Position numbers and translations under genes: made by a program. This document shows, piece by piece, positions 25,687 to 41,309 of a stretch of DNA of 43,132 nt (the first letter of the stretch is position 1; every line of letters starts with the position of its first letter). The DNA is from Desulfovulcanus ferrireducens (lineage in GTDB: Bacteria > Desulfobacterota > Desulfovibrionia > Desulfovibrionales > Desulfonatronovibrionaceae), in contig NZ_JAGUQP010000026.1 of NCBI RefSeq assembly GCF_018704065.1, forward strand, positions 1-43,132, read 5' to 3'. The notes under the pieces are model-generated. The model searched no databases. It was not told the origin of the DNA and saw nothing but the letters and a program-made list of their open reading frames with translations.

Positions 25687-25917
25687 CCTAAATTGAGCGA
25701 TTCTTTTGCGGTTTAAAGTTTGAGATTTTTTTATGACATTGCGAGGAGGGTTGAGATTACGATGTTTGAGATTGCTTCGCTCCACTTCGTTCCGCTCGCA
25801 ATGACAGGGGCGAGCATATTGTCATTGTGAGGGCAGCGAAGCTGCCCGTGGCAATCTCACCCATTGGGTGAGAATAGCTGGCTCTAAATCTACTTGTATT
25901 CCAATGTGTTTGAACAT
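25687..25917 (-). repeat. Palindromic MITE-like element, copy 1
   Basis: It starts CCTAAATTGAGCGATT two bases after the metG stop codon. It contains the core (GAGATTGCTTCGCTCCACTT ... GGCAGCGAAGCTGCCCGTGG ... CACCCATTGGGTG) and ends with the long-arm segment that in other copies reads GATTTTRAGCCAGCGATTTTC on the opposite strand. The outer end is worn away near 25917. The core is a pair of imperfect palindromes able to form a cruciform or a stable RNA hairpin. Confidence 0.85.
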
Positions 25918-26073: not shown

Positions 26074-27552
26074 TTACAGAAATTTAATCCCAAAATCAGA
26101 AATAGTAACATTTTGGGTTTTACCTCTAGTACTCTGAGTCCAGCCAAAAATAATATAATCCATGTTAGAAATGGTCACGCTATCTTGAATAGTCGGCGTT
26201 GTGCCATTGTAAGAACTGGTCAAGTCGCTACAATCAATACAATCAACCCACGCCCTGAGCTGAAAATCTCCTGATGTAGCATTACGATCTACCTCCAAAC
26301 GAAACGTATGCTCCATAGCATCTTCTAGCCAAGTCACCTGCGTTGTATTATAGTAACCTAAATCACCATATTCATTATTTTTTGGGTCGCCCTTATCTGG
26401 ATCTCCCGCACCATGTGTCACATCATCATCAACATCTTCAACAAGCTTTTTTTTGCGTTTTTTCTCGTATTTTTCTCCCCAGTACATAAGAGATACATGA
26501 TTGTATGGGGAATAATCATTAAAACCTCCATCTGGATATGTATCAACCTCTACAGCCATTTTTGGGTAACGAACAGGCTCTGTAACTCCATTATCTCCGG
26601 CATAACCTAAATAGCCTTTATCCTTGCCGCAAACAGTGCAATCATTGTTTGCTGCGGAAATTAGCGCAAATGTAAAACCATCAGCAAAATCTTTGCTGCT
26701 AAGACTTGAATCAATATCGGCAAATCTGAACTTAAAAAATACTCGTACACCATTTCCAAAAGTACAATTCCCATTGTTACAGGGACCAGAATCTCCGGAA
26801 TACCAGTAACAACCGTAAGCATTTCTATACCCATTACCCAAATTTATAGTCTTATTTTCTTGAACGACCGTTATACTTTGTTTTTTACGGGGATAAATTG
26901 CTGCGCCTTGCACAAAATCATCCATGTTTTGCGCAAAAGAAATGTCAGCTCCCAGGGGTCCACTTTCAGAACCAGATGCAGAAGTACATATTTTTTGTTT
27001 TAAGTAACCTAGGGTCACGTATTCAACAATATCGTCATAAGGCTCTGGTCTATCTACATCCTCTGGATAGTCGTCCACCTTCTGGCCATATTCGTAAATA
27101 GTTACATCATCGGTATTATTGCCCAACTGCAAATTAAAATTCTCCCCCTTACTGGCAATGACAAAGGCAACATTATCCCTTGTATCTGATCCTAGAATTA
27201 CGCTTAATGTAGAATTATCTTGCGAACATATACTATCGTCGGCAAGCAAGTTACTAGCTGGCCTGTAAAAGAGCGTCCCTTTTCCAAAGATTTCCTCACC
27301 GTGTCCGATTTGATCCGGAGAAGAAGGCAGCTTGCCATTCATCACTGCATATCCCACAATCTCATCCCTGGCTATCCGAACCAACCGCCTGGCATTTGTT
27401 AACCTATCTCTTTTTATACTTTTTACTATCGCCGGCACGATCATGCTCGCAATCAGGCCAATAATGACGATAATAATGGCCATCTCCACAAGGGTAAAAC
27501 CCCTTTTTGTTGAGTGGTTAAGTGGCTGAGTGGGGGAGTGGTAAACTCTCAT
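26074..27552 (-). CDS. Type IV prepilin with C-terminal L-type-lectin-like domain (candidate pilus adhesin)
   Basis: The 492-residue protein has a prepilin leader cut after Gly18 (TKRG/FTLVEMAI) and the pilin helix (19-45). A pilin-like region runs to about 200 and a beta-rich C-terminal domain from about 215 to 492. That domain has the marks of legume/L-type lectins in order: DGFTFAL 291-297, GYLGYAG 313-319, AVEVDTYPD 333-341 with N345, D346, N351 and H352 as candidate metal and sugar ligands, HTFRLEVDR 415-423, and a C-terminal FGWTQSTRG ... ISDFGI strand pair. Several cysteine pairs (CTVC, CIDC) suggest disulfides. The leader is long because it is coded by an octamer repeat; AGAGGA five bases before ATG supports this start. 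The lectin call is by eye; the prepilin call is firm. Confidence 0.85.
   Translation of the reverse strand: MRVYHSPTQPLNHSTKRGFTLVEMAIIIVIIGLIASMIVPAIVKSIKRDRLTNARRLVRIARDEIVGYAVMNGKLPSSPDQIGHGEEIFGKGTLFYRPASNLLADDSICSQDNSTLSVILGSDTRDNVAFVIASKGENFNLQLGNNTDDVTIYEYGQKVDDYPEDVDRPEPYDDIVEYVTLGYLKQKICTSASGSESGPLGADISFAQNMDDFVQGAAIYPRKKQSITVVQENKTINLGNGYRNAYGCYWYSGDSGPCNNGNCTFGNGVRVFFKFRFADIDSSLSSKDFADGFTFALISAANNDCTVCGKDKGYLGYAGDNGVTEPVRYPKMAVEVDTYPDGGFNDYSPYNHVSLMYWGEKYEKKRKKKLVEDVDDDVTHGAGDPDKGDPKNNEYGDLGYYNTTQVTWLEDAMEHTFRLEVDRNATSGDFQLRAWVDCIDCSDLTSSYNGTTPTIQDSVTISNMDYIIFGWTQSTRGKTQNVTISDFGIKFL
27512..27543 (-). repeat. Octamer array translated as the prepilin leader
   Basis: Read on the minus strand the units are TACCACTC, CCCCACTC, AGCCACTT and AACCACTC, the same period-8 pattern as at 10085-10124. 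It encodes most of the leader peptide of the lectin prepilin. Confidence 0.7.
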
Positions 27553-27604
27553 ATTTTCCTCTTCTTTCGTAAAGATGAGTTGAGTGAAGAAATATTGACA
27601 TATA

Positions 27605-27783
27605 CCTAAGTTGAGCGATTCTTAATTTAATTTTACATTAAACACATTGAGGTAAAAGTAAATTTTGAGCCAGGCTATTCTCTACCCATTGGTTAAGATT
27701 GCCACGGGCAGCTTCGCTCCCCTCGCAATGTCAATCTCGCCCATGTCATTGCGAGCGGAACGAAGTGGAGCGAAGCAATCTCC
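27605..27783 (+). repeat. Palindromic MITE-like element, copy 2 (left of the GIY-YIG gene)
   Basis: It begins CCTAAGTTGAGCGATT, continues with the AATTTAATTTTACATTAA long arm and reaches the core (AGATTGCCACGGGCAGCTTC ... GAGCGAAGCAATCTC). The core overlaps the last 30 or so codons of the GIY-YIG gene, which reads through it on the opposite strand. Confidence 0.88.
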
Positions 27784-28080: not shown

Positions 28081-28141
28081 AAAAAACAATTTTTCTTGGT
28101 TCACGGTAAAATGTCAACGATGAAAAATCTTTCCCTCAATG

Positions 28142-28276
28142 CTTGAGATTGCCACGGGCAGCTTCGCTGCCCTCGCAATGACAATCTCGCCCATGTCATT
28201 GCGAGCGAAACGAAGTGGAGCGAAGCAATCTCAAACTTGGTAATCTCAACCCTCCTCGCAATGTCATAAAAAAATC
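28142..28276 (+). repeat. Palindromic MITE-like element, copy 3 (right of the GIY-YIG gene)
   Basis: The core has the same orientation as copy 2, followed by the extra half-unit (AATCTCAACCCTCCTCGCAA, then TGTCATAAAAAAATCTCAA) that is also in copy 1. The outer terminal repeat is missing; the element stops at the stop codon of the next prepilin gene (28277). Confidence 0.88.
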
Positions 28277-28936
28277 TCAATCAAAAAGGGCTTGCAATTC
28301 CGAAGCAGTAACGATTAATGCCAGGTCATCATAACTTGCATCATCAGGATGATAAAAATTGGGTGGGTTGTCAGGATCTAATGCCGCAGCCAGTGTATCA
28401 GAGCTTACAAATCTGTCCCCATAAGAAGAATCATCTGCCTGGCCGTTTTTCCCAAAACTAATAAGGATAAATGCCACGCCGGTGCGTTCCTTATTGTGGA
28501 CATCAATAACTTTGGAGTCTGGGCTGATTGTAGCCCTTGCCTGGTCCTGGGCCAGGTTTGCTATGACATAGTCACTGCTCTGACTCAAGCCATCTCCGCC
28601 CTGCTCAAGTCCCTCTAAGAATCTGAGCCGATTTCCCCAGGCATCTTTTATGCCACACAGGCAAACATCAACATCTTTGGTTTGATCTACACTGGAACAA
28701 TCAGGTGCAGGTGTATAATCTGGATATTTATTGGTATAAGCAATTCGCCTGAACAAACAATCCTTGGCCTGATTCAATGCCGAACGCGTTGCTGCAATTT
28801 TGCGGGCCTGCATCAAGGAGGTCCAAGACAAAACACCACCACCAATAAGCAGACCAACTATAACCAAAACCAAGGCTAATTCCACAAGAGTGAAACCATT
28901 TTTTACGGTTCTATTTAGCCTGGATACTATCAACAT
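28277..28936 (-). CDS. Type IV prepilin-like protein (minor pilin)
   Basis: The 219-residue protein has the prepilin site VKNG/FTLVELALVLVIVGLL (cut after about residue 14) and the usual N-terminal helix. The globular part has five cysteines (one near 64, DCSS, CLCG) and an acidic C-terminal half (ALDPDNPPNFYHPDDASYDD). It is larger than the probable major pilin and lies after that gene's terminator, so it is likely a lower-abundance minor pilin or pseudopilin. The stop codon touches a palindromic element. Confidence 0.88.
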   Translation of the reverse strand: MLIVSRLNRTVKNGFTLVELALVLVIVGLLIGGGVLSWTSLMQARKIAATRSALNQAKDCLFRRIAYTNKYPDYTPAPDCSSVDQTKDVDVCLCGIKDAWGNRLRFLEGLEQGGDGLSQSSDYVIANLAQDQARATISPDSKVIDVHNKERTGVAFILISFGKNGQADDSSYGDRFVSSDTLAAALDPDNPPNFYHPDDASYDDLALIVTASELQALFD

Positions 28937-29201: not shown

Positions 29202-29777
29202 CTAAAACCGAATAAAGGTGTTACCTATCGAACCACTTGCTGGGACGTAGTCCTCACTGGCCACTACAGAACCGGTATTATAAACACCATCGTCTAGTTT
29301 GGTGTCGATTTCCAAAGCCACATCCCAGGGCAAATTGTCTAGGCGAAACCAATGGTCTGTAATGCCGCCAGCAGGAGTCTGCCAATACAATAAAATGAGA
29401 TCGCCAAAAGCATGCTTAGGGTAGCTATCGGTACCATCTCCATCGTAGCTTCCTGAAATCATACCCGCTTTTTGCAGGTCTTCGAAAAGCATATCGCTTT
29501 CACCAAATTCTATCTGACCGTCACCATCGCCATCATGTGTATCGCCATCAGGAAAATTTGCCGAATTTTCATCCCCTGGATACATACCATAGCGGTCATA
29601 AAATGTTAAGGTCGCAGCGCGAATAGAATCTACCGCCTTCATTACATTTTTGACCTTTGCTTCCTGAATGAGTGAACGGCCCTTGAGTACTCCTGCTATA
29701 AGCAAACCAACAATAACCAAAACAATGGCCAGTTCCACTAAAGTAAAACCTTCTTCTCTTTTAACTTCTTTTAACAT
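29202..29777 (-). CDS. Type IV prepilin, probable major MSHA-type pilin, with EF-hand-like loop
   Basis: The 191-residue prepilin has a short leader cut after Gly10 (KREEG/FTLVELAIVLVIVGLLIAG) and the FYDRYGMYPGDE strand typical of one prepilin group. At residues 82-93 it has a perfect EF-hand loop pattern, DGDGDGQIEFGE (D82, D84, D86, G87, I89, E93), and a second acidic run YDGDGTD at 111-117, so calcium binding is likely. A strong Shine-Dalgarno (GGAGGAGG), a sigma-54-type promoter of its own and a terminator right after it all argue for high, separately controlled expression, as expected of the main fibre subunit. No cysteines are present. Confidence 0.9.
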   Translation of the reverse strand: MLKEVKREEGFTLVELAIVLVIVGLLIAGVLKGRSLIQEAKVKNVMKAVDSIRAATLTFYDRYGMYPGDENSANFPDGDTHDGDGDGQIEFGESDMLFEDLQKAGMISGSYDGDGTDSYPKHAFGDLILLYWQTPAGGITDHWFRLDNLPWDVALEIDTKLDDGVYNTGSVVASEDYVPASGSIGNTFIRF

Positions 29778-30195: not shown

Positions 30196-30993
30196 TTAAC
30201 GTTCTTCGAATATTCTTTCCAGGCGCAACACACGCCTGTCTGTTGGATAGTTCTGAATCAATTTTGTATACTCCTGCTTGGCCAGCATAAACTTTCGCTG
30301 ACCTAGTAAAGAATAGATCAAGTTAACACGACAGACTATATCCCCACGATTTCTTATCAGGGCCTGACGAAAAAATTGTTCTGCCTCCTGAAACTTTTTT
30401 TTCTTTAAAGCCAGGACACCTTGCCATTTAAGTGTCAAAAAATTGTCAGGACCCAAAAGCTGATTTACCTGAGCCAGTAACCGGTTGAACTCTTCTTCAT
30501 CTCCTTTGTTCAAGGCCGATGCAAGCCGTGCATTGAGACTCAAGACTCTTTTATTGCGCTTAGCCTGAGCGAAAAAATGTTTTTCCAGGGCCAAAGTGGG
30601 TTTTTTAAATTCTTTAGGCAATACCTCTTCTTTTTTTGAGACCTTCTTTTTCAACTTATCCACAGAGGCAAGGGCGAAAATACTGCCCTTATCACCTCCA
30701 TTTTCTTCAACTCGAGATGTTGCGTTCTGACTTTGCGCCTTTACTGGCTCTGCCTTTTTGACCTTTGCCGTGGTCTTGCGTACCAAAGGCTTTTTTACCT
30801 CGGAAACTTGTTGAATCTCTCCTGCAGTCCAAAAAAAACCAACAAACAAAATAAAGCTGATTGCGAGAAGAAAAAAAAGTAGACGTGAGACAACCTCCCT
30901 GGGCTTGGGCATAGCGCCCACTGGCACCACCTTAGGTTGTCCTTGGACTTTCTGACGGCGAAGTTGTTGAAGGCTGCGGTAGATGAGACTCAC
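30196..30993 (-). CDS. MshN-like TPR protein of the pilus machine
   Basis: The 265-residue protein has the MshN-type start (MSLIYRSLQQLRRQK), one membrane helix at about 38-56, a basic linker (60-140) and a C-terminal TPR region (about 190-260). Topology suggests a periplasmic TPR domain that could contact the secretin. GTG start at 30993, one base after the mshL stop codon (TGACGTG), so translation is coupled. It is the last gene before the pilin promoter region. Naming rests on architecture and position. Confidence 0.8.
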   Translation of the reverse strand: MSLIYRSLQQLRRQKVQGQPKVVPVGAMPKPREVVSRLLFFLLAISFILFVGFFWTAGEIQQVSEVKKPLVRKTTAKVKKAEPVKAQSQNATSRVEENGGDKGSIFALASVDKLKKKVSKKEEVLPKEFKKPTLALEKHFFAQAKRNKRVLSLNARLASALNKGDEEEFNRLLAQVNQLLGPDNFLTLKWQGVLALKKKKFQEAEQFFRQALIRNRGDIVCRVNLIYSLLGQRKFMLAKQEYTKLIQNYPTDRRVLRLERIFEER

Positions 30994-30994
30994 G

Positions 30995-32584
30995 TCAAAT
31001 AATTCTAATCGTCATTATAATAACTAACTCACGGACCTGTTCAGTATAATTCTTACCTTTAAATAACCATCCCAGAACAGGAATACGCCCTAACCCGGGG
31101 ACTTCTTGATCTGTTTTACCAGTTGTCTTATCAATAAGCCCCCCCAGAATAATGGTGTCATTATTATGTACCTTTACGTTAGTACTTACATTTTTTATCT
31201 CAATCTTGGGCAAAGTGATTTTGCTTCCATCACCTGTTACATCGCGCAAAGTTAAACTATCAGGGTCAACCTGACTCTTGATAGGAAAAATTTGCAGGTC
31301 TGCTTCATTTTCATTATTTATAAAAGGAACAACTCCAAGCAATATCCCATCAAATACAGAGGCTACATCCACAGTATAAGTAACCTGACCATCTTCTTCC
31401 TGCCTGGTGACACTGCGCACATAGTTCTCAGATGTACCTGAAGTAAACAAAGCTGGCTGACCATGACGGGCGCGAACATGCGGGTTGGAAACAACCTTAA
31501 CATTACCAAAAGTTTGCAAAGCCTCTATGGTAGTACGCATCGTTGAGGTGCGGTCATGGCTACCAATGGCACTATCGGGTTTAGTAACCACGGTTAGTGG
31601 GATCGTGCCCGCGCCTGCCCCGGTCCACCCAACGTTTACAGAGTAAGCAGTTCCACTAATCAGCCTCTCGGCCACATAGTTCCAGTCAATACCAAAGCGA
31701 AAGTCATCTTTTAAACTAACTTCCAGAATCTGAGCGTCAATAATTATCTGTTTTTTCATTTTTTTCTTCAACTGGCGCAAAAAACGACTCACAGCATTCA
31801 TCTTTTGCGGGCTGGCGCGCACAACCAAAGTACCGGCCAAAGGGTCAAGCGTAAAATACTGGTCACCAGAGCTTGCGCCTGCAGTCGAAGAACCGGCAGA
31901 ACCACCACCTGCAAGGATGCTGGCTATTGAGGTCTGAACAAAACTGTACAAAGAACCATCTGCAATCCCCTTACCTAAAGAGGCCGTTACCTGAAACTTG
32001 CCTGCCATATTGGCACTACCTTCACCCAAGGCCGAACCGAATACATCCCCACCATTATCTATCTCAACAGCAGTCTGAACATTTAAAAAACCAAGGTCAA
32101 AAGCCCTCTCTTCAAATCTCTTTACAAAAAGCACGTTGTCCTTGATCTCCCACGCCAGATCATAAGCCTGCAAAAGTTTCTCCACCACAACTGAAGAGGG
32201 TGTATCCTCAAAAGAAAGCGTGACCTTGTTCTCCAAGCTAATCCCGGGCTCGATAACCAGGTTTAAGCCAGCATTGCGGGCAATCACATATAACACATCA
32301 TGCAATGGTTCATCTTTTACTGAAATAGAAACAGGGGTCTCCTCCAAAGGATTAAACCCCGGTATCTCCGGCTCAATAGGCACCTTTAAACGTGGAGTTG
32401 TCTTTTCTAGGTCGCCTTCCTTTTCTCTAACCCTGGCTAACGATTCTTGTTCAGCCTGGAGGGCCTTATATAGAGCATCATATCCAAGCTTGGGTTTAAG
32501 TCTGTCTTTTGGCGGGGCACAAGACAAACAAATACCCAAAGTCACAACTATCAAAAAAATAGTAAGGATTTTTCTTTTTATCAT
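30995..32584 (-). CDS. mshL: MSHA-type secretin MshL-like, outer-membrane channel
   Basis: The 529-residue protein has an N-terminal export signal with a cysteine near residue 22 (probable lipoprotein, though the lipobox is not ideal) and an STN/N0-like domain (VSISVKDEPLHDVLYVIARNAGLNLVIEPG). A secretin N domain and the C-terminal secretin domain follow (VVRASPQKMNAVSRFLRQL, then VPGLGRIPVLGWLFKGK near the end). A Gly/Ser/Ala-rich loop lies near residues 225-245. It forms the ring through which the pilus passes. Confidence 0.92.
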   Translation of the reverse strand: MIKRKILTIFLIVVTLGICLSCAPPKDRLKPKLGYDALYKALQAEQESLARVREKEGDLEKTTPRLKVPIEPEIPGFNPLEETPVSISVKDEPLHDVLYVIARNAGLNLVIEPGISLENKVTLSFEDTPSSVVVEKLLQAYDLAWEIKDNVLFVKRFEERAFDLGFLNVQTAVEIDNGGDVFGSALGEGSANMAGKFQVTASLGKGIADGSLYSFVQTSIASILAGGGSAGSSTAGASSGDQYFTLDPLAGTLVVRASPQKMNAVSRFLRQLKKKMKKQIIIDAQILEVSLKDDFRFGIDWNYVAERLISGTAYSVNVGWTGAGAGTIPLTVVTKPDSAIGSHDRTSTMRTTIEALQTFGNVKVVSNPHVRARHGQPALFTSGTSENYVRSVTRQEEDGQVTYTVDVASVFDGILLGVVPFINNENEADLQIFPIKSQVDPDSLTLRDVTGDGSKITLPKIEIKNVSTNVKVHNNDTIILGGLIDKTTGKTDQEVPGLGRIPVLGWLFKGKNYTEQVRELVIIMTIRII

Positions 32585-32618
32585 CTTCTTTTTTCAATTT
32601 ATTGGTTTATTTTAGATT

Positions 32619-32840
32619 CCTAAGTTGTACGATTTTTAATTTAATTTTACATTAACCACATCGGAATAAAAGCAGATGTTGAGCAAGCGATTTTCACCCA
32701 AAGGATGAGATTGCCGCTGGCAGCTTCGCTGCCCTCGCAATGACAATATGCTCGCCCCTGTCATTGCGAGCGGAACAAAGTGGAGCGAAGCAATCTCAAG
32801 CCTGACAATCTCAATTCTTCTCGCAATGACAATGTAAAAC
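32619..32840 (+). repeat. Palindromic MITE-like element, copy 4
   Basis: It starts CCTAAGTTGTACGATTTTT with the long arm, then the full core, and ends in the extra half-unit. It fills most of the 365-base gap between the MshK-like gene and mshL. The outer right terminal repeat is not recognisable. Confidence 0.85.
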
Positions 32841-32949
32841 TCTATATTAGCAACCTATTCAACAATTTATTATCGAACATTGGCTGCAAAAATAAGTTTT
32901 TTTCAGGCGCTTATTTTCATATCAAGCTTAATAAGATAGCTATCACAAA

Positions 32950-33594
32950 TCACTTTTTCTGCAACTGTTTTAAAAGTTTTAATGCCTGCTCAGGCGATAA
33001 AAGTTGTTCTTTTGTTTGATTTGCATTCAATGTAGTTAGGGGTTCATCAGTTTGCATCTGGTTTGTAACAGGGTGAGATGTCGTGGATGATCGAGTGACA
33101 ACATTCTGCGATTGTGCCGGTACAACTTTTTTTAACTCTACTTTTAATGGCGGTATCCATGGCACAATATACGTCTGCTTTCTTATATCTTGCAAATGAA
33201 CACCATCCTGGTCAATAAGAGCAACCTTTCTTCCATCAGGCAATATGTCGCCAATTGTATAAAACTCACCATTTATAACAGCAAATTTTTTACTCTCTCC
33301 CAGAAAAATCAATTGCACCTCAAGGGGGCCAAGCCGTTCTAATGGGTCCACAATGAGCTCAGATAATAGCCGAGGAAAACTCTCCTCCAACCGCAAATTA
33401 ATCAACTCAGCAGCCTGATAAATCAAATTCTGGTCGCTCTCAGGGGGCAATATGTCCACATGCTGCTCTACTTTTAGCTTCACTGGTAGAACTGAAACAT
33501 TGGTTATCTTTTGAATAGACCAAAACAAAACTAAACCGGAAATTAAAATAACCAGCAAAAGACGAATGATACTTTGAATACGTAAGGGATGCAT
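32950..33594 (-). CDS. MshK/PilP/GspB-like inner-membrane protein
   Basis: The 214-residue protein has one N-terminal membrane anchor (about 11-28) and a periplasmic domain. The FAVINGEFYTIGDILPDGRKVALIDQDGVHL stretch (about 104-135) matches the small beta domain of GspB/MshK/PilP proteins, which link the inner-membrane assembly to the secretin. The tail (150-214) is Thr/Ser/Gln-rich and ends with a helix. No clear ribosome site. Its neighbours are secretin and PilN-like genes, with repeat elements in both gaps. Confidence 0.75.
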   Translation of the reverse strand: MHPLRIQSIIRLLLVILISGLVLFWSIQKITNVSVLPVKLKVEQHVDILPPESDQNLIYQAAELINLRLEESFPRLLSELIVDPLERLGPLEVQLIFLGESKKFAVINGEFYTIGDILPDGRKVALIDQDGVHLQDIRKQTYIVPWIPPLKVELKKVVPAQSQNVVTRSSTTSHPVTNQMQTDEPLTTLNANQTKEQLLSPEQALKLLKQLQKK

Positions 33595-33607
33595 ATTTTA
33601 TTACTAT

Positions 33608-33682
33608 GTGCTTAACTTGTACAATTGATTTGATATTTAACCTTTGAGACTGTAGAGCGCTAACGCGCCTCGCAATGACAAA
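33608..33682 (+). repeat. Fragment of the palindromic element, copy 5
   Basis: It holds a worn terminal repeat (CTTAACTTGTACAATTGATTT) and a short piece of core (TTTGAGACTGTAGAGCGCTA, then GCGCCTCGCAATGACA), in the gap between the PilN-like and MshK-like genes. Confidence 0.6.
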
Positions 33683-33718
33683 GTAAGATTTCAAACGATT
33701 GACGTAACTTTGTAAAAA

Positions 33719-35527
33719 TCACAAGCTGTGTAATAAGGTTAACGCAAAAAAGTTATTCTCCAGGCTTAAGTCAATATCTTTACGTAATATCTTATATCCA
33801 GCTTCCTCAAGCATAGCTAAATACTTGGTAAAAACAGACTGAGCTTGAATCAGGTCAGCATCTATTGTCCCTTCCAAGCGCACCTGAACGCCATCTTTAA
33901 TATATTTTATTTCTAAAGCTTCAATTCGACATACTCGAGGCTTTAACTTAGCAAGGCCATTCCATATTTCTATTAATTTAGGAGACAGGGTAGCATCTTT
34001 GATATTTTGGGCCAATTCTCTTAACCTGCTTAAATCCTCTTTACTGTATCTTTGCAGCTTCTGCAAAGGCTCTTGCAATTCTTTGATATCCTTAACAAGC
34101 TCTTGAGCCTGCTGCTCTAGCTGAGAAATTTCCAGCTCCACTTGTTTATTTGTCTTGTCGAATAAAATTGCACTAGCACCAAAAGACAGGCTCAACCCCA
34201 GCATAGCGGCCCAAACCCATTTTTCAATCTTTTCCAAACCAAGGGCCCATATCTCATTTTTAGGCCCAAAACAGGCTTTTTTAGAAACATGACGCACCGC
34301 GCCGGGCAAACTAGACCAAACCTTACGCCCGTCTAGCTCAAGAATATAAAGTGGCCACCTATAAAAAGAAACTCCCTGGGGCAGGATCTGCGGCCAGACA
34401 GGATTATCAGCCAAACCCTCAAGCCACTCGATCTGTTCAATATCTTCTCCTCCAGACTGTGTTAACAGATCCTGCACACAGGCAAAAATTCCCTCTTGCA
34501 AAGCGTGTTCATCATCTCCAGCCAATGCATAACGCCTGGCCCAAAAAACTCGTCCTCTACGTCCAGCAAGAAGCAAAATGGCTTCCGGAATATGCAGAGC
34601 CAGAGCCACCGCCTTTTTTCTTTTCAAACCTAAAAAAAGACCATAGAGTAGCCCCAAGGTATCGAAAAGCAGATATCCCTGCCTCGTTTTTGTCGCCTTA
34701 TCCAGGAGATTATAATGTTTCTCGCGGGGTAAAAGTTGATATAGAAATTCTGTTCGTGACTTGGAAATTTTTCGCCTGGTCACAAAATGAAGTTCATATT
34801 CATCAGTAAGTTCACCCTGTTCCTGCAATTTTTTTCTAGCCAGGATATGGGCATATTTAGGCTGACCATCAATGGTCAAAATTCCCATCTCAGGTGCCAA
34901 ATAATAATCCACAAAATAAAGCAGATGCTTATTGTATTTATCAATATCAACATCTTGAGCTACAACATTGCCAGAAAACAGATACAATCCGCTTTCCAAA
35001 TCGAGAACAAAATCAGGATAAGAAGTATGTTCAGCGATGTTCCACCCCTGAGTCAGTAGGATATCATCTTGAAGCTGCTTACTTTCTTCAAACTGACTCC
35101 GTTCCCAACCAGGGCCGGTTTCAGTCCAGGCTGACCAAGGTTGCGGAGACTGAGCAGGAGAAGATCCTTCGTCCGGACTTGAACCAAGAGGTAACGTCTC
35201 AACTGTTTCAGTTACTGTTGATGCTGTTTCTTTATCATCCTCTTTAATCTCTTGCCCGTTTTCCTGCCCCTCTCCTGGCTCTAGAGCTGGCTTTGAATTT
35301 TTCTTGTCAGGTTCTTGACTCTCCGGAAAAAAAAATTCAACTGCCGGCTCTTCTAGATCCGGCAGTTGCTCTGGAATATCATCATCCAGACTAACTTCAG
35401 GGATAGAACCCTTGTCCTCACTATAGGCAGAGGAATTAGCCCTTTTATCTGTCGACTCTGAAAACAGCTCTTCCTGCTGCTCCAATTCAGAAACTTTTTT
35501 TTGGGGCTTTTTTGTGTTATCAGACAT
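33719..35527 (-). CDS. MshI/PilN-like assembly protein with long acidic N-terminal region
   Basis: The 602-residue protein has three parts. Residues 1 to about 145 are acidic, rich in Glu, Ser, Pro and Gln and probably disordered. Residues about 150-395 form a folded cytoplasmic domain that may be a diverged PilM/GspL-type actin-like fold. After one membrane helix (about 400-420) come a coiled coil (SQLEQQAQELVKDIKELQEPLQKL) and a C-terminal PilN-type ferredoxin-like domain. This order fits an MshI/GspL-type protein joining the cytoplasmic ATPase level to the periplasm. The acidic extension is unusual. Confidence 0.75.
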   Translation of the reverse strand: MSDNTKKPQKKVSELEQQEELFSESTDKRANSSAYSEDKGSIPEVSLDDDIPEQLPDLEEPAVEFFFPESQEPDKKNSKPALEPGEGQENGQEIKEDDKETASTVTETVETLPLGSSPDEGSSPAQSPQPWSAWTETGPGWERSQFEESKQLQDDILLTQGWNIAEHTSYPDFVLDLESGLYLFSGNVVAQDVDIDKYNKHLLYFVDYYLAPEMGILTIDGQPKYAHILARKKLQEQGELTDEYELHFVTRRKISKSRTEFLYQLLPREKHYNLLDKATKTRQGYLLFDTLGLLYGLFLGLKRKKAVALALHIPEAILLLAGRRGRVFWARRYALAGDDEHALQEGIFACVQDLLTQSGGEDIEQIEWLEGLADNPVWPQILPQGVSFYRWPLYILELDGRKVWSSLPGAVRHVSKKACFGPKNEIWALGLEKIEKWVWAAMLGLSLSFGASAILFDKTNKQVELEISQLEQQAQELVKDIKELQEPLQKLQRYSKEDLSRLRELAQNIKDATLSPKLIEIWNGLAKLKPRVCRIEALEIKYIKDGVQVRLEGTIDADLIQAQSVFTKYLAMLEEAGYKILRKDIDLSLENNFFALTLLHSL

Positions 35528-35627
35528 TACTTTATATTTCGTAACTTATGTTGAGTTTCCCATCTATCCAACCGAGCTCACTGCAAAAATTTACTTTCTG
35601 CAGACACACCCTTCTCGTGTATTTCGT

Positions 35628-35844
35628 GGTTAAGTTGAGCGATTTTTAATTTAGTTTACTTAAACATATTGGAATAAAAATAGATTTTAAGCCAGCGATT
35701 TTCACCCAATGGGTGAGATTGCCACGGGCAGCTTCGCTGCCTCGCAATGACATAACGATCATCCTGTCATTGCGAGGAGCGAGCGTGAGCGAAACGACGA
35801 AGCAATCTCTAGCTTTAAACAGCAAAAAAATCGCTTAACTTAGG
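35628..35844 (+). repeat. Palindromic MITE-like element, copy 6 (best preserved ends)
   Basis: Left end TTAAGTTGAGCGATTTTTAA and right end AAAAAAATCGCTTAACTTAG are inverted copies; long arm and full core lie between. The 8-mer TCGTGGTT occurs at 35624-35631 and 35846-35853, bracketing the element like a target duplication, though its left copy overlaps the end by a few bases. Confidence 0.88.
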
Positions 35845-35865
35845 GTCGTGGTTGAAATGTGGCAA

Positions 35866-36381
35866 TCATTGAAACATCCTTTTTCTCATCAAAAATTGCC
35901 CCTTTAATTTAATTTGATACATATCTTTCTCAGAATCAGTAACTTGTGCACGCAAATGCTGATCATTTGCTTTTTGTTTTGAAGCTGCAATTTTTATGAG
36001 CACAAAGAGTTCTGGTTTGAACCAATAGTCTTGCGGATAAGGACGGCCGCGTGAAACCAAATACACGAGTCCCTCCACTTGGGCCCAAGAAAGCTTCTGG
36101 TCAATATCTAATGGGTAAAGCAACCAATTATCCGCATCTAACCCTGCGGCATGAACTCGACTTAATATCTGCTTCCATCGCCTGACCTTTTGCGGGTTTG
36201 ATTGAATTCTATGTAATTCAGTCTGCAACTTGCTGAGCTCACGCTCAACTTGTGCTCTTTTCTGCAAATTAGCCTTAAACCGACTATAAGTTTGAGCAAA
36301 AAAAATGCTCGCTCCTGCCAATGCCAAAGTAAGCACAATGCCAGTCGCCCAACTGATTATCTGACGTGTTTCAACTTTCAT
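35866..36381 (-). CDS. PilO/MshJ-like assembly protein
   Basis: The 171-residue protein has one membrane helix (about 11-29), a coiled-coil segment (FKANLQKRAQVERELSKLQTELHRI) and a small C-terminal domain. That is the layout of PilO/GspM/MshJ proteins, which pair with the PilN-like partner encoded next. No sequence motif is decisive, so the name comes from topology and its place between mshG and the PilN-like gene. The gap to mshG is 35 bases. Confidence 0.7.
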   Translation of the reverse strand: MKVETRQIISWATGIVLTLALAGASIFFAQTYSRFKANLQKRAQVERELSKLQTELHRIQSNPQKVRRWKQILSRVHAAGLDADNWLLYPLDIDQKLSWAQVEGLVYLVSRGRPYPQDYWFKPELFVLIKIAASKQKANDQHLRAQVTDSEKDMYQIKLKGQFLMRKRMFQ

Positions 36382-36416
36382 CTTTCTATTTCAGCCTCTT
36401 AGGACTTATATAAGCC

Positions 36417-37643
36417 CTAACTAATACCACTAATCAAGTCATAGATAGGCAGGAGCAGGCCGGCAATGATCATAGCAAACAAAATACCTACAAAAACTAA
36501 CAGGGCCGGTTCCAGGGTCTTTCCCAAAACCTCTACAAGGGCATCTAATTTCTGCCGATAGACTCTCGCAATATATTCTGTTTGCTCCTCAATACGTCCA
36601 GTTTGCTCCCCAACCGTAATCATCCTCAGTGCAAAAGGATGCATGGCTTGAGTCTGACGCAATGCCTCGGATAAAGTTACTCCCCCTTTAATGGCGTCTT
36701 TTACCTGATTTAACCTTTTTTTATACACTTCATTACTAATGGAATCAATAATTATCTCTAAAGCACGCAAAACCCCAATTCCAGCACCAATAAGAATGCC
36801 CAAAAACTCACTCACTCTGGCCACCAAAGAAATTGTCAGGATATTGGACAAGAGAGGCAAATGCAATAGGACGTTATCGCTAAAATAGCGAAAATTATAA
36901 GACATGCGACGCACAATCATAACTCCAGCGGCTACAAAGGCCACAATAAAAACTGCCATGCCAAAATAATTCTGAAACAAATCAGAAATATAAATTAAAA
37001 TACGTGTCGGCAAAGGCAGAGCAACCCCCATTTCTTTAAAAAGGGAAACCAGTTTGGGAACTACATACCAGAACCAGAATATAACTGCTCCTACTACCAT
37101 CACGGAGAGAAACGCTGGGTACATCAATGCTCGTTTAGTCCCGCTAATAATTTCATGCAAATGCTGAATATGCTCGGAACATTTTTTGAGCATTTTATCC
37201 AAATTTCCTGTTTCCTCACCAATACGGATCATATGCAGAAGCACGGGAGAGAATATACGTCTATGTTTTTCAATTGCCTCGCCAAAAGTTTGACCACTCT
37301 CTATATCTGTACAAATGAGTCTTATGGTTAGTTTTAGAAAAGGATTTTCAGCGTCACCTTCCAATTCTTCCAAAGCAGATAAAATCGGGACTCCTGCCGA
37401 AAGAAGCATGGACAGGTTGTTGAAAAATTCGGCCAGCACAGGACGCTTAACATTGAGCAATCCACCTTTTATCGCGCGCATCAAAAAAGAAATAGTATCA
37501 GGTATTCGAGTGACCTCTAAAACAACACTACCGCGTCGTTCAAGATAGCGAAGAGCTGCACCAGGATCATCAAATGGCAATTCGACAAAACCGGTTTCTA
37601 CTTCTCCTTGGGGTGTAAGCAGCTTGAATCTGAAGGTAGACAT
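36417..37643 (-). CDS. mshG: Inner-membrane platform protein MshG/GspF-like
   Basis: The 408-residue protein has two repeated T2SF domains (about 68-190 and 270-395), each with the conserved FFNNLSMLLSAGVPILSALE-type or FLGILIGAGIGVLRALE motif, and three membrane helices. It is the inner-membrane platform on which the ATPase acts to add pilin. It follows mshE in order but lies 470 bases away because a composite repeat element fills the gap, so it may depend on a second promoter or on read-through. Confidence 0.95.
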   Translation of the reverse strand: MSTFRFKLLTPQGEVETGFVELPFDDPGAALRYLERRGSVVLEVTRIPDTISFLMRAIKGGLLNVKRPVLAEFFNNLSMLLSAGVPILSALEELEGDAENPFLKLTIRLICTDIESGQTFGEAIEKHRRIFSPVLLHMIRIGEETGNLDKMLKKCSEHIQHLHEIISGTKRALMYPAFLSVMVVGAVIFWFWYVVPKLVSLFKEMGVALPLPTRILIYISDLFQNYFGMAVFIVAFVAAGVMIVRRMSYNFRYFSDNVLLHLPLLSNILTISLVARVSEFLGILIGAGIGVLRALEIIIDSISNEVYKKRLNQVKDAIKGGVTLSEALRQTQAMHPFALRMITVGEQTGRIEEQTEYIARVYRQKLDALVEVLGKTLEPALLVFVGILFAMIIAGLLLPIYDLISGIS

Positions 37644-37735
37644 AATTTTTCAAATCATCCTTAAATTCGTAATCCATCAAAGATTATCGCCTGAATTTCC
37701 TTCACCATTACTTTATACCGCCTCACCCACTACTA

Positions 37736-38111
37736 CCTAAATTGAACAATTTTTTCTAACTGCTTAAATTTATTGCTAACTGGTGACTGGATCCTTTTGC
37801 GAAACAAAAGTGCCTGCTCCCAGAAACAGAAAGGCTCGAACAACTAATTTAGCTGATGCAAAAACGCTCAATTTAGAAAATACATTTTCATGCACGGGGG
37901 GGGGACAAAATCTCTTGTCATTGACGTTTAGGAAAGTAAAAGTAAATTTTTCGCCAGCGATTTTCACCCAATAGATGAGATTCCACGGGCAGCGAAGCTG
38001 CCCTCGCAATGACAATTCGTTCACCCCCTGTCATTACGAGGAGCGAGCGTGAGCGAAGCGACGAAGCAATCTCAAAGTTTTTTAAGTTGCAAAAAAATCG
38101 CACAAAGTAGG
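37736..38111 (+). repeat. Composite palindromic element, copy 7
   Basis: The outer ends are CCTAAATTGAACAATTTTTT (37736) and AAAAAAATCGCACAAAGTAG ending at 38111, two bases past the mshE stop codon. The core at about 37960-38075 is normal. The left part is an extra segment (37736-37876) that itself ends in AAAAACGCTCAATTTAG and so looks like a complete small element joined to a second one. A run of nine G lies at 37896-37904. Confidence 0.8.
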
Positions 38112-38113
38112 AG

Positions 38114-39760
38114 CTAGTACCTCGTCGTGCCAAGAACCCTCTTTATCTCTTCTAAAGTTGTTAACCCTGCTTTGATCTTGGCCACACCAATATCAAACAT
38201 ACTTTTAAAGCCCTTTTGTTTAATTGTTTGAGCAAGCTCGTAAATGGGGACCCCCCTTTCCAAAAGAGAACGTAATTCACTATCCAAAAGTAAAATTTCA
38301 TAAACTAATGTCCGGCCCAAATATCCGCTTTGAGCACACGAATCGCATCCTGCGCCGCGATATAGCTGATCGACATCTTCTTTCAGATAAGCTTTTTCCT
38401 CAGCCGATGGCACATAAGGCTGACGACAATGCTTACACACTGTGCGTACCAGCCTTTGACTAACCACACAGACCAAACTTTCAGCAATAGTTAAGTTGTC
38501 CACATTTAAATTCTGCAATCTGGCTATAGCACCAAGAGCTGTATTGGTATGTAATGTGGACAGGACCAAGTGACCGGTATTAGCAGCGGTCATGGCTGTC
38601 TTAGTTGTAAGTTCATCTCTCATCTCGCCAACCAGGATTACATCCGGGTCATGACGTAAGAAATAGCGCATGGCATTGGCAAAATCATAGCCTGCAGCCT
38701 CATTAACCTGGGTCTGTCTGGCCAAAGGCACGACATATTCAATGGGATCCTCTATGGTCAAAACATTTTTGCCCAAGAGGTCCAGAGTCATCAAACCGGC
38801 TACCAGAGTGGTGGACTTTCCAGAACCAGTAGGCCCAGTAAGAAGAACAATACCAAAAGGTTCGGCAAAGGCCTGCTGAATCAGACTTAGATCCTCAGGT
38901 AAAAAGCCCAAGGATTCCAAGCTGAAGCTGGCCCTTTCCTGAGAGAGAAGACGTAGAACTATGTTCTCGCCATAAGGCGTCACCACAGAGGAGGCGCGAA
39001 TGTCATAACTTCTATTCAAAATTCTGGCAGTCCAGCGTCCGTCCTGTGGCAGCCTTTGTTCTGAAATATCCATGCCGGCCTGAAGTTTGATGGCTGTGAT
39101 AATTCGTTTAAGCTGGACCGGAAAAAAATACTCGTTTCTTAAAACCCCATCAACACGGAAAGCTACACTAATGCCATTGCTCATTGGACGAATATGAATG
39201 TCTGTTGTTCTTCTCTTCACTGCCAACAAAAGAAGATGCTGAATAAAACTGTCAGGGCTAACTGTCATCCTGGTGTCGGCAGCAAGTACTTCAGCTTCTC
39301 TCTGGATAATAGACTCAACAGGGTTTTCCAAAAAATAAAAGTAGTTATAGATAGAAGTAACAACCTGTGTTTCTTCCGCCAGAACAAATCGAGGTCTTTT
39401 GCCTGTAAAACGAAGACAGGACTGTTCAATATTTTGGTTTGGCAAGTCCGAGGTCGCAATGAGGATATGATTGCCTTCCTGACGTAAAGGGAAAAAATAC
39501 TGATTAAGACAAACGTTCCGATTAAATCTCTTCAAAATTGCCGGGTCTGGCTGCTCTCTGGATAGATCCATATATTCCAGTCCTAATTGCTCGGCTACGG
39601 TTTTAACCAGATCATATTCACTAACCAAGCCAACTCGGGTGAGTACCTGTCCTAACTTCTCTTTTGTAACCTTTTGCACCTGCAGGGCATAGTGCAAATG
39701 TTTATCTTCAATAAGGCCTTTCTCGATTAAAAGATCTCCAAGACGTAGAGGCTTGGACAT
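38114..39760 (-). CDS. mshE: Pilus assembly ATPase MshE/GspE-like
   Basis: The 548-residue protein has an N-terminal MshEN/GspEN domain (1-150) and a hexameric ATPase domain. Walker A GPTGSGKST lies near residues 305-313, followed by the Asp box (TIEDPIEY), Walker B (ILVGEMRDELT), His box (LVLSTLHTN) and a zinc-binding tetracysteine (CKHC ... CDSC, about 440-480) usual for extension ATPases. It powers pilus extension. Its start is one base from the end of the ExeA-like gene, so the two are coupled. A retraction ATPase (PilT) is not in the window. Confidence 0.96.
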   Translation of the reverse strand: MSKPLRLGDLLIEKGLIEDKHLHYALQVQKVTKEKLGQVLTRVGLVSEYDLVKTVAEQLGLEYMDLSREQPDPAILKRFNRNVCLNQYFFPLRQEGNHILIATSDLPNQNIEQSCLRFTGKRPRFVLAEETQVVTSIYNYFYFLENPVESIIQREAEVLAADTRMTVSPDSFIQHLLLLAVKRRTTDIHIRPMSNGISVAFRVDGVLRNEYFFPVQLKRIITAIKLQAGMDISEQRLPQDGRWTARILNRSYDIRASSVVTPYGENIVLRLLSQERASFSLESLGFLPEDLSLIQQAFAEPFGIVLLTGPTGSGKSTTLVAGLMTLDLLGKNVLTIEDPIEYVVPLARQTQVNEAAGYDFANAMRYFLRHDPDVILVGEMRDELTTKTAMTAANTGHLVLSTLHTNTALGAIARLQNLNVDNLTIAESLVCVVSQRLVRTVCKHCRQPYVPSAEEKAYLKEDVDQLYRGAGCDSCAQSGYLGRTLVYEILLLDSELRSLLERGVPIYELAQTIKQKGFKSMFDIGVAKIKAGLTTLEEIKRVLGTTRY

Positions 39761-39761
39761 T

Positions 39762-41309
39762 TTATTTAGCTCCTCTCTGTTCCAGCCAAAATAAAGTGAT
39801 GTGATCCGGATAACCTGTCACAGGTAAACCACAATCTCTTTGAAAATCACTAATAGCAACCCAGGTTTTTTTTCCTGCTATCCCGTCAACTCTACCCGTA
39901 TGATAACCAAGTTTACGAAGGAGAGTTTGCAAAATAGTAATTTCAGGACCTTTTGCCCGATAACAAAATTCTTTAACCATTATCATCGGACGCCAGATAA
40001 CAATCCAAACCGGACCGTCAGGTACATACTTGGACCAATTCAAAGCAGACCAATTTAATCGCCTGTGTCCAGGTATATGGTCAAGCTCAAGGAGTTGTAA
40101 TCCAGACGGCAAATGTCTCCGCAACAAATCTACACAGGCGTATTTCTTAGCCTGTTGCAGGTAAGGCATTAATTCCTCAACTCCCCATGGCTGCAAAAAT
40201 TCTATCCATTCTCGTTCAATAGCATCCTGATCTTTTGCAGGCTCCATAACCTGACTAGCAGACTTCGAGCCAGGCGCTGGTTCTCCCTGGCGTACTATTT
40301 TCCCATAGACTATGGGACCGGACGAATCCAAACCCTCCTGCAACTTATAAAAAAGATAGCTGGGCAAATTGACGTCTCCCTTCTCAGGAAGCTCCCAAAG
40401 GGGGAAAAAAGTTGTGCACATCAAAAGCACAAGAATGCTTGTCAAAACCATGAGACGCTTCTTCCTTCGAAACTGACTCAACTGTCTGGATATATCTACC
40501 TGATAAATGGCAACATCTTCAATGGCAATCTTGATAATTTTCCTGCTTATCGTACTCTCGTTCGCAACAAACAGGGCATAGAGAGACCGCTCCATAACAA
40601 GGTTAACCAGGCGTAAATTCCCCTTGGTCGCGTTCCATAACAGATTAATAGCCTGCCGGGTGATCCTGAACTGCGACTCGGCATTAGCCAGTTTAAAGTC
40701 AATGTACCCTTTTAATTCTTCTCTGGTCAGATGAGGAAGTTCCAGGAAAATGCTTATCCGGCTACGCACTTGACGCATGCGCGGTTGATCCAAAAAAAGT
40801 TTAAGTTCGGGTTGGCCAATGAGCAGAATTTGCACCAACTTCTGCCCTTCCCATTCTAAATTGGAGAGCATACGTAAGGCTTCAAGACACTCACCGCTTA
40901 AGTTGTGAGCTTCATCAATAACTATAACGCAATTCTTATTCTCTTTATAATATTTGAGGAAAGATTGATAAAACTGGTCTTGTAAAGAAGACAGGCTTTT
41001 TTTGACGGGAAACCCAAAATCCTTGGCTAAAACCTGAAATAATTCAATTTTATTCAAGGCCGTATTAAAAACCCAAGCAAAAGGAATTTCTTCTTTTTTT
41101 AGTCTAGCCAGTAGCTGAAGCGACAATGATGTTTTACCTACTCCCACTTCTCCCATCAAAACCAGAAATCCTTTACGGGTCTCTATACCATGCCACAACT
41201 CTTCCAAAATACGTTTAGTAGCATCAGTATAGTAATATCCGCCAGAATCAGTAGCCACTGAAAAAGGGTTGAACTTTAAACCTAGAACAGAAAAAATATC
41301 TTGTTGCAC
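39762..41309 (-). CDS. ExeA/GspA/MshM-like ATPase with peptidoglycan-binding domain
   Basis: The 515-residue protein has a cytoplasmic AAA ATPase (Walker A GEVGVGKT at 53-60, Walker B VIVIDEAHN near 129-137), one membrane helix (about 286-306) and a periplasmic part ending in a peptidoglycan-binding domain (about 455-510, LQTLLRKLGYHTGRVDGIAGKKT). In Aeromonas, ExeA with ExeB uses this layout to open the cell wall for secretin assembly; MshM in MSHA loci is the shorter relative. Here it heads the operon. GTG start at 41309 with a purine-rich AGGAAGAGGG upstream. Confidence 0.9.
   Translation of the reverse strand: MQQDIFSVLGLKFNPFSVATDSGGYYYTDATKRILEELWHGIETRKGFLVLMGEVGVGKTSLSLQLLARLKKEEIPFAWVFNTALNKIELFQVLAKDFGFPVKKSLSSLQDQFYQSFLKYYKENKNCVIVIDEAHNLSGECLEALRMLSNLEWEGQKLVQILLIGQPELKLFLDQPRMRQVRSRISIFLELPHLTREELKGYIDFKLANAESQFRITRQAINLLWNATKGNLRLVNLVMERSLYALFVANESTISRKIIKIAIEDVAIYQVDISRQLSQFRRKKRLMVLTSILVLLMCTTFFPLWELPEKGDVNLPSYLFYKLQEGLDSSGPIVYGKIVRQGEPAPGSKSASQVMEPAKDQDAIEREWIEFLQPWGVEELMPYLQQAKKYACVDLLRRHLPSGLQLLELDHIPGHRRLNWSALNWSKYVPDGPVWIVIWRPMIMVKEFCYRAKGPEITILQTLLRKLGYHTGRVDGIAGKKTWVAISDFQRDCGLPVTGYPDHITLFWLEQRGAK

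Follow-up and report, generated by a model that had tools for sequence, protein, structure and literature searches.

A predicted fusion of a type IV prepilin with an L-type lectin domain beside MSHA-type pilus genes in Desulfovulcanus ferrireducens

Pilins that carry a functional module on a type IV pilin N-terminus are already known in bacteria. The pilin PilC of S. sanguinis contains Ig-like and ConA-like lectin modules, and its binding of sialylated glycans and GAGs has been measured (PMC9934059). A survey of modular pilins counted more than 1,200 of these proteins in 264 architectures, including one with the lectin family PF13385 (PMC8179133). The literature searched for an L-type lectin joined to a pilin, or displayed on an MSHA-type pilus, yielded no such case. 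The protein described here is encoded in the window, meaning the whole 43,132-nucleotide stretch of DNA that was analyzed. A preliminary description, drawn from the letters of this DNA, had stated that no MSHA-type pilus with this fusion was known. That statement agrees with the literature searched, with the qualification that lectin-bearing pilins as such have been described (PilC, PMC9934059; PMC8179133). As PilC is known and modular pilins are widespread, the fusion in the window is best placed as a conserved but unreported variant of the modular lectin pilin.

The prepilin gene and its MSHA-type locus

The open reading frame at 26074-27552 (minus strand) starts with ATG and encodes a product of 492 amino acids. 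The N-terminus scores above the cut-offs of both Pfam N_methyl (PF07963; 23.9 bits against 21.2) and NCBIfam IV_pilin_GFxxxE (TIGR02532; 16.6 against 16.3), so the prepilin first proposed for this frame is upheld. Residues 1-18 form a leader that ends in glycine, cleavage is predicted before F19 (MRVYHSPTQPLNHSTKRG/FTLVEMAIIIVIIGLIASMIVP), and the mature protein has a glutamate at position 5 (Glu5). The gene and its parts are as follows.

27558-27562, minus strand: Shine-Dalgarno-like AGAGG, 5 nt 5' of the ATG, read from the sequence
26074-27552, minus strand: predicted prepilin-lectin fusion gene, 492 aa, stop codon included (open reading frame list, full-length relatives)
27499-27552, minus strand: predicted 18-aa class III leader peptide, ending KRG/FTLVE (Pfam N_methyl, NCBIfam GFxxxE)
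26986-27498, minus strand: mature pilin module, residues 19-189, an alpha-1 helix with Glu5 and a small domain ending YDDIVEYVTLGYLKQKIC (model helix 21-72; family profile matches solved type IV pilins; module also in lectin-less pilins)
26941-26985, minus strand: short Ser/Gly-rich linker, residues 190-204 (TSASGSESGPLGADI), at the position of an Ig-like He_PIG domain in relatives (comparison with relatives)
26077-26940, minus strand: predicted L-type lectin domain, residues 205-492, about 285 aa (Pfam matches of relatives, PDB profile search, model)

The window contains three prepilin genes, the lectin-pilin included, together with a block of MSHA-type assembly genes.

28277-28936, minus strand: minor prepilin immediately upstream of the lectin-pilin; its orthologue adjoins lectin or carrier pilins in relatives (open reading frame list, NCBIfam, loci of relatives)
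29202-29777, minus strand: further prepilin, candidate major pilin (open reading frame list, NCBIfam)
30196-41309, minus strand: MSHA-type assembly genes, whole block (NCBIfam, Pfam)
30196-30993, minus strand: TPR protein, MshN-like
30995-32584, minus strand: secretin MshL (TIGR02519, 259.5 bits against a cut-off of 250.2)
32950-36381, minus strand: small and large accessory proteins
36417-37643, minus strand: MshG/GspF (Pfam)
38114-39760, minus strand: MshE ATPase with c-di-GMP MshEN domain (c-di-GMP motif NF053729, 55 against a cut-off of 38)
39762-41309, minus strand: ExeA/MshM-like AAA and peptidoglycan-binding protein (PF13401, PF01471)

The Pfam basis for the MshG and MshE assignments is PF00437, PF05157 and PF00482. 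With an MshL secretin and an MshE ATPase carrying an MshEN domain, both over their cut-offs, this is an MSHA-type locus. One prepilin peptidase gene (PF01478) lies elsewhere in the genome, and no MshQ-like gene was recognized in the annotated parts of the window.

These assignments bear on whether the protein might instead be a T2SS-like pseudopilin, with a lectin that helps to hold a secreted substrate and with no adhesive pilus. GspG and GspH models gave the best matches to the N-terminus, though below their cut-offs, and the MSHA and T2SS machines are homologous; the secretin, however, is over the MshL cut-off and not over that of GspD, and the ATPase has the MshE type of c-di-GMP domain, which makes the T2SS explanation highly improbable. 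The reading that we prefer, with a probability of roughly 0.7, is a modular type IV pilin of an MSHA-type pilus whose lectin head would bind a metal and a glycan and anchor the cell.

A palindromic dispersed repeat of about 96 nt (TGTCATTGCGAGCGAAACGAAGTGGAGCGAAGCAATCTC...) has copies at 25768-25866, 27687-27782, 28137-28232 and 32706-32797, which bracket the lectin-pilin gene and also fall inside the MSHA locus. We considered whether 95-nt inverted repeats mark the ends of a mobile cassette, but rejected this as the main reading because the repeat is present in about 40 copies, at 89-96% identity, spread throughout the genome. A GIY-YIG nuclease-like open reading frame (PF01541, 27682-28104) lies between two of the copies, separates the lectin-pilin from the other pilin genes and has its C-terminus encoded by the repeat.

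Evidence for an L-type lectin fold

The C-terminal motifs that had led to the lectin assignment in the preliminary description are all present and in the order given there: ADGFTFAL (290-297), GYLGYAG (313-319), AVEVDTYPD (333-341), ND (345-346), NH (351-352), HTFRLEVDR (415-423) and FGWTQSTRG (469-477). Searched alone against Pfam, the window domain matched no family at E<=1, and a phmmer search of the protein against the PDB returned nothing convincing outside of the pilin part. As both searches were blank for this domain, the case for a lectin rests on its relatives.

Full-length relatives of the window protein are present in the same order, and the lectin domain was matched in 50 of 348 genomes of that order. 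In a 32-row alignment the lectin domains share 28-60% identity, and E335, D337, H352 and the glycine of GWT are among the invariant columns. Further conserved motifs in the domain are YWG, DDNxHG, WLEDG and HxxRxE. At E<=1, PF18483 (Lectin_L-type_dom) matches 22 of these 32 sequences, with a best value of 1.5e-7, and PF00139 (Lectin_legB) matches six; the Pfam families listed for them include no LamG and no GH16. Profile support for an L-type lectin was thus obtained through the relatives and not through the window domain itself. When the family profile was searched against all PDB chains, 32 chains were matched, all but one of them legume lectins (best 2fmd, 1.6e-4); the metal loop and the D-G-[FL], LG and ExDTYxN motifs were in register between the profile and the PDB legume lectins. 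At its N-terminus a profile of the whole protein matched nothing but type IV pilins and pseudopilins, and at its C-terminus nothing but legume lectins. On these alignments, we judge that the match of the C-terminal domain is not due to chance. In addition, both halves are recognized on one protein in each of two relatives: a Persephonella protein (L078) matches N_methyl and PF18483 (3.5e-14), and a Nitrospirae protein (L083) matches N_methyl and, above the gathering score, PF00139, so that the latter fusion is recognizable as pilin plus legume lectin by Pfam.

An AlphaFold2 model was built from the window protein and 24 relatives (25 sequences), and was used in place of a single-sequence prediction, which reached a pLDDT of 33. 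The model, with a pLDDT of 77.6 overall and 80-96 over most of the lectin core, places a long helix at residues 21-72 and a beta-rich domain at the C-terminus; a loop at 361-396 is below 50. All of the first 50 Foldseek matches of the model in the PDB are legume lectins. The best VIA-align match is the legume-lectin domain of M. jannaschii (Methanocaldococcus; 7elv), with Z 21.5 and an rmsd of 2.3 A over 204 residues at 22% identity. Comparison of model residues 200-492 with legume lectins, SraP, ERGIC-53, VIP36 and YwfG gave Z values of 18.4-19.0 (SraP 18.9, legume lectins and ERGIC-53 18.7-18.8, VIP36 18.5). The predicted fold is accordingly the ConA-like jelly roll that the preliminary description had anticipated. 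From the N-terminal scores, the Pfam and PDB matches of the relatives and this model, the window protein is predicted to be what that description proposed, a true prepilin that carries an L-type-lectin (ConA-like) domain at its C-terminus.

The putative metal and sugar site

Three elements of a legume-type binding site can be placed on the window sequence by alignment.

26656-26685, minus strand: putative sugar-site loop A, ADGFTFALIS (D291), aligned with ADGxxF of legume lectins
26596-26616, minus strand: GYLGYAG, putative equivalent of the legume GGxLGLF loop B (alignments with relatives and PDB legume lectins)
26497-26550, minus strand: putative metal-site motif E335-V-D337-T-Y339-P-D341..D346..H352 (family and PDB alignments)

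In the alignment, ConA residues E8, D10, Y12, N14, D19 and H24 correspond to E335, D337, Y339, D341, D346 and H352 of the window protein, in which the canonical metal ligands Glu8, Asp10, Asp19 and His24 are therefore all present. Among about 60 distinct family segments, a set that includes near-copies and so gives non-independent counts, E8 and D10 are invariant wherever the residue is present, H24 is kept in 56 of 58, D19 in 47 of 52 and N14, as asparagine, in 50 of 58, while the aspartate of loop A is retained by 48 of the 52 with a residue there. The metal site is thus preserved in homologues, with E8, D10 and H24 near-invariant, as the preliminary description would require. Its "ND" ligands hold in part: D346 is the equivalent of ConA D19, but the equivalent of the canonical Asn14 is Asp341 and not N345.

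The sugar-site triad of the window protein therefore has Asp291 and the GYLG loop, with an aspartate (Asp341) at position 14, a change seen in few other family segments. The alignment at this position is firm because EFDVYPNGGRNDPGTYNH of the Thermodesulfobacterium protein (L074) aligns with EVDTYPDGGFNDYSPYNH of the window. The closest relative (L065) keeps Asn14 and has a tyrosine in place of the loop-A aspartate. Aspartate is able to bind calcium, and the canonical asparagine side chain of legume lectins also hydrogen-bonds the sugar. Given the two substitutions, neither the window copy nor L065 can be assumed to bind sugar in the canonical way, and their canonical binding of monosaccharides may have been changed or lost. 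Some relatives of the legume lectins have lost sugar binding, and the same substitutions would fit a domain that keeps the lectin fold with a structural metal and a degenerate sugar site, contacting protein, mineral or the pilus rather than a glycan. We regard this as unlikely, as the window copy retains every metal ligand, the loop-A aspartate and the GYLG loop, and as most of the family keeps both Asn14 and the loop-A aspartate at the counts given above. Judged from these residues, sugar binding by the window copy is likely but not assured.

For the preferred reading, a glycan-binding modular pilin of an MSHA-type pilus, the following course can be proposed. Prepilin peptidase would remove the 18-residue leader by cutting at G18, and the alpha-1 helix with Glu5 would pack the pilin module into the filament, probably as a minor subunit. 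The linker at residues 190-204 would expose the lectin, either on the outside of the filament or at its tip. The lectin would use E335, D337, D346 and H352 to hold calcium, probably along with a second ion, and once loaded with metal would grip a glycan in a shallow site formed by loops A, B and C. As the pilus extends and retracts, under MshE and its c-di-GMP-binding domain, the cell would become anchored to surfaces, polymers or partner cells that bear sugar. Tip-type pilins of the GspK kind usually lack Glu5, and as the window copy keeps it, a tip position is not implied. A bulky head favors tip exposure without proving it, a reservation also made by the authors of the modular pilin survey (PMC8179133). 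The glycan binding of PilC is a precedent and is taken as support for the function of the window lectin, and because the metal motif is conserved, the proposed calcium-dependent binding is directly testable.

Within this preferred reading the ligand could be the cell's own exopolysaccharide or neighboring biofilm cells in place of an external host or substrate glycan. A glycosylated animal host is not expected for most of the named carriers, which are free-living sulfate reducers and thermophiles, but two are MAGs from symbionts of the worm Olavius, and we treat a self or biofilm ligand as a serious possibility that falls somewhat short of an even chance.

Distribution, modularity and comparison with known systems

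A contig search with the window protein alone as the query found no relatives, and the wider contig search was conducted with a 7-row alignment as the query; the plasmids and phages searched gave no match. Homologous assembly genes lie beside the fusion in a Desulfobacterales MAG (L065), in Thermodesulfobacterium thermophilum (L074) and in Thermodesulfovibrio (L085), and MshL lies beside it in two Persephonella loci (L078 and L081). Pilus loci with the fusion, often with an Ig-like spacer, are thus found among sulfate reducers and thermophiles of several phyla. Among the 121 Aquificota genomes, five have a protein that matches the Persephonella fusion along its whole length; in many others the match covers the pilin and Ig region of longer frames but not their C-termini.

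The module displayed on this conserved carrier is swapped. The carrier pilin has a conserved end, ..YDDIVxxVTLxxLxxKIC, and occurs without a lectin in genomes of the same family (L006-L008) and in a paralogue of L065. In another genome of the family (L013:865-2007) it is followed by a stretch that resembles an Ig-like domain and by a tail rich in Gly, Ser and His, with no lectin, and adjoins MshL and a TPR gene. Carrier, Ig and lectin are joined in L074, L078, L081, L085 and L083, with He_PIG (Ig-like) over its cut-off in L085, and carrier and lectin alone in the window, L065, L003, L055 and L076. As the carrier is found bare, with Ig, with Ig and lectin, and with lectin alone, the family is a good example in which to follow how pili exchange adhesive heads. 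On a tree of carrier pilins, the lectin must have been gained or lost at least four times; as many of the deep forks are weak, we do not infer a direction or an exchange of the head between particular genes. Searches of the other genomes from the same genus and family did not find the lectin. Some of these genomes retain a lectin-less pilin module, indicating that the lectin is not essential to the pilus.

Most members of the lectin family found here have a pilin-like N-terminus. The same lectin occurs on Glu5-less PilX/GspK-like pilins (GSSLLYVI...) in Solidesulfovibrio and Desulfovibrio (Desulfovibrionaceae), as well as on proteins that begin with an ordinary signal peptide (L070, L073, L079 and L080), of which L080 is a secreted non-pilin lectin on a contig labeled as a Bacteroidota MAG. 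One Glu5-less pilin-like protein (L010:805-2931), encoded downstream of two prepilin genes, carries an L-type lectin and then a LamG domain (PF13385). In four Desulfobacterota sequences (L087, L088, L089 and L090) the lectin domain is in two halves about 200-300 residues apart, as if a domain had been inserted; in L088 the halves are in overlapping frames.

L-type lectins fused to pilins were found in Thermodesulfobacteriota, Nitrospirota and Aquificota, a distribution that is wide and apparently unreported. We hold it to be evenly balanced whether they constitute a widespread, unrecognized family of pilus-borne lectins, a dedicated, swappable head of MSHA-type pili in at least three phyla, on Glu5 and Glu5-less carriers, with metal-dependent glycan specificity. 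The predicted fusion would add the best-studied lectin fold to the heads known on bacterial type IV pili, and the link between an L-type head and the MSHA-type machines of anaerobes and thermophiles offers a route to what environmental pili hold.

The closest precedent in architecture is PilC, which also joins a prepilin N-terminus to a C-terminal lectin of the ConA superfamily. Its pilin-Ig-lectin order is shared with L074, L078, L081 and L085, and is absent from the window protein, which has pilin and lectin only. The likeness is one of architecture. The PilC module has been described only as SSF49899 and superposed on galectin-7, whereas the window protein has a predicted L-type lectin with the legume metal motif, in an MSHA-type pilus of diderms. 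The vWA pilin PilB of S. sanguinis and other modular pilins (PMC8179133) likewise place a functional domain on a pilin carrier, with a different head domain. With the lectins of PF18483 and PF00139 (7elv, legume lectins, SraP, YwfG, ERGIC-53 and VIP36) the window domain shares the predicted fold, the ordered loops A-C and the metal ligands; it differs in falling below Pfam detection, in its extra conserved motifs and in the aspartate at position 14. The locus resembles that of the Vibrio MSHA pilus in having MshL, MshE with a c-di-GMP domain, MshG, MshM-like and TPR genes together, and differs from it in the module displayed, which in the window is a predicted L-type lectin fused to a prepilin.
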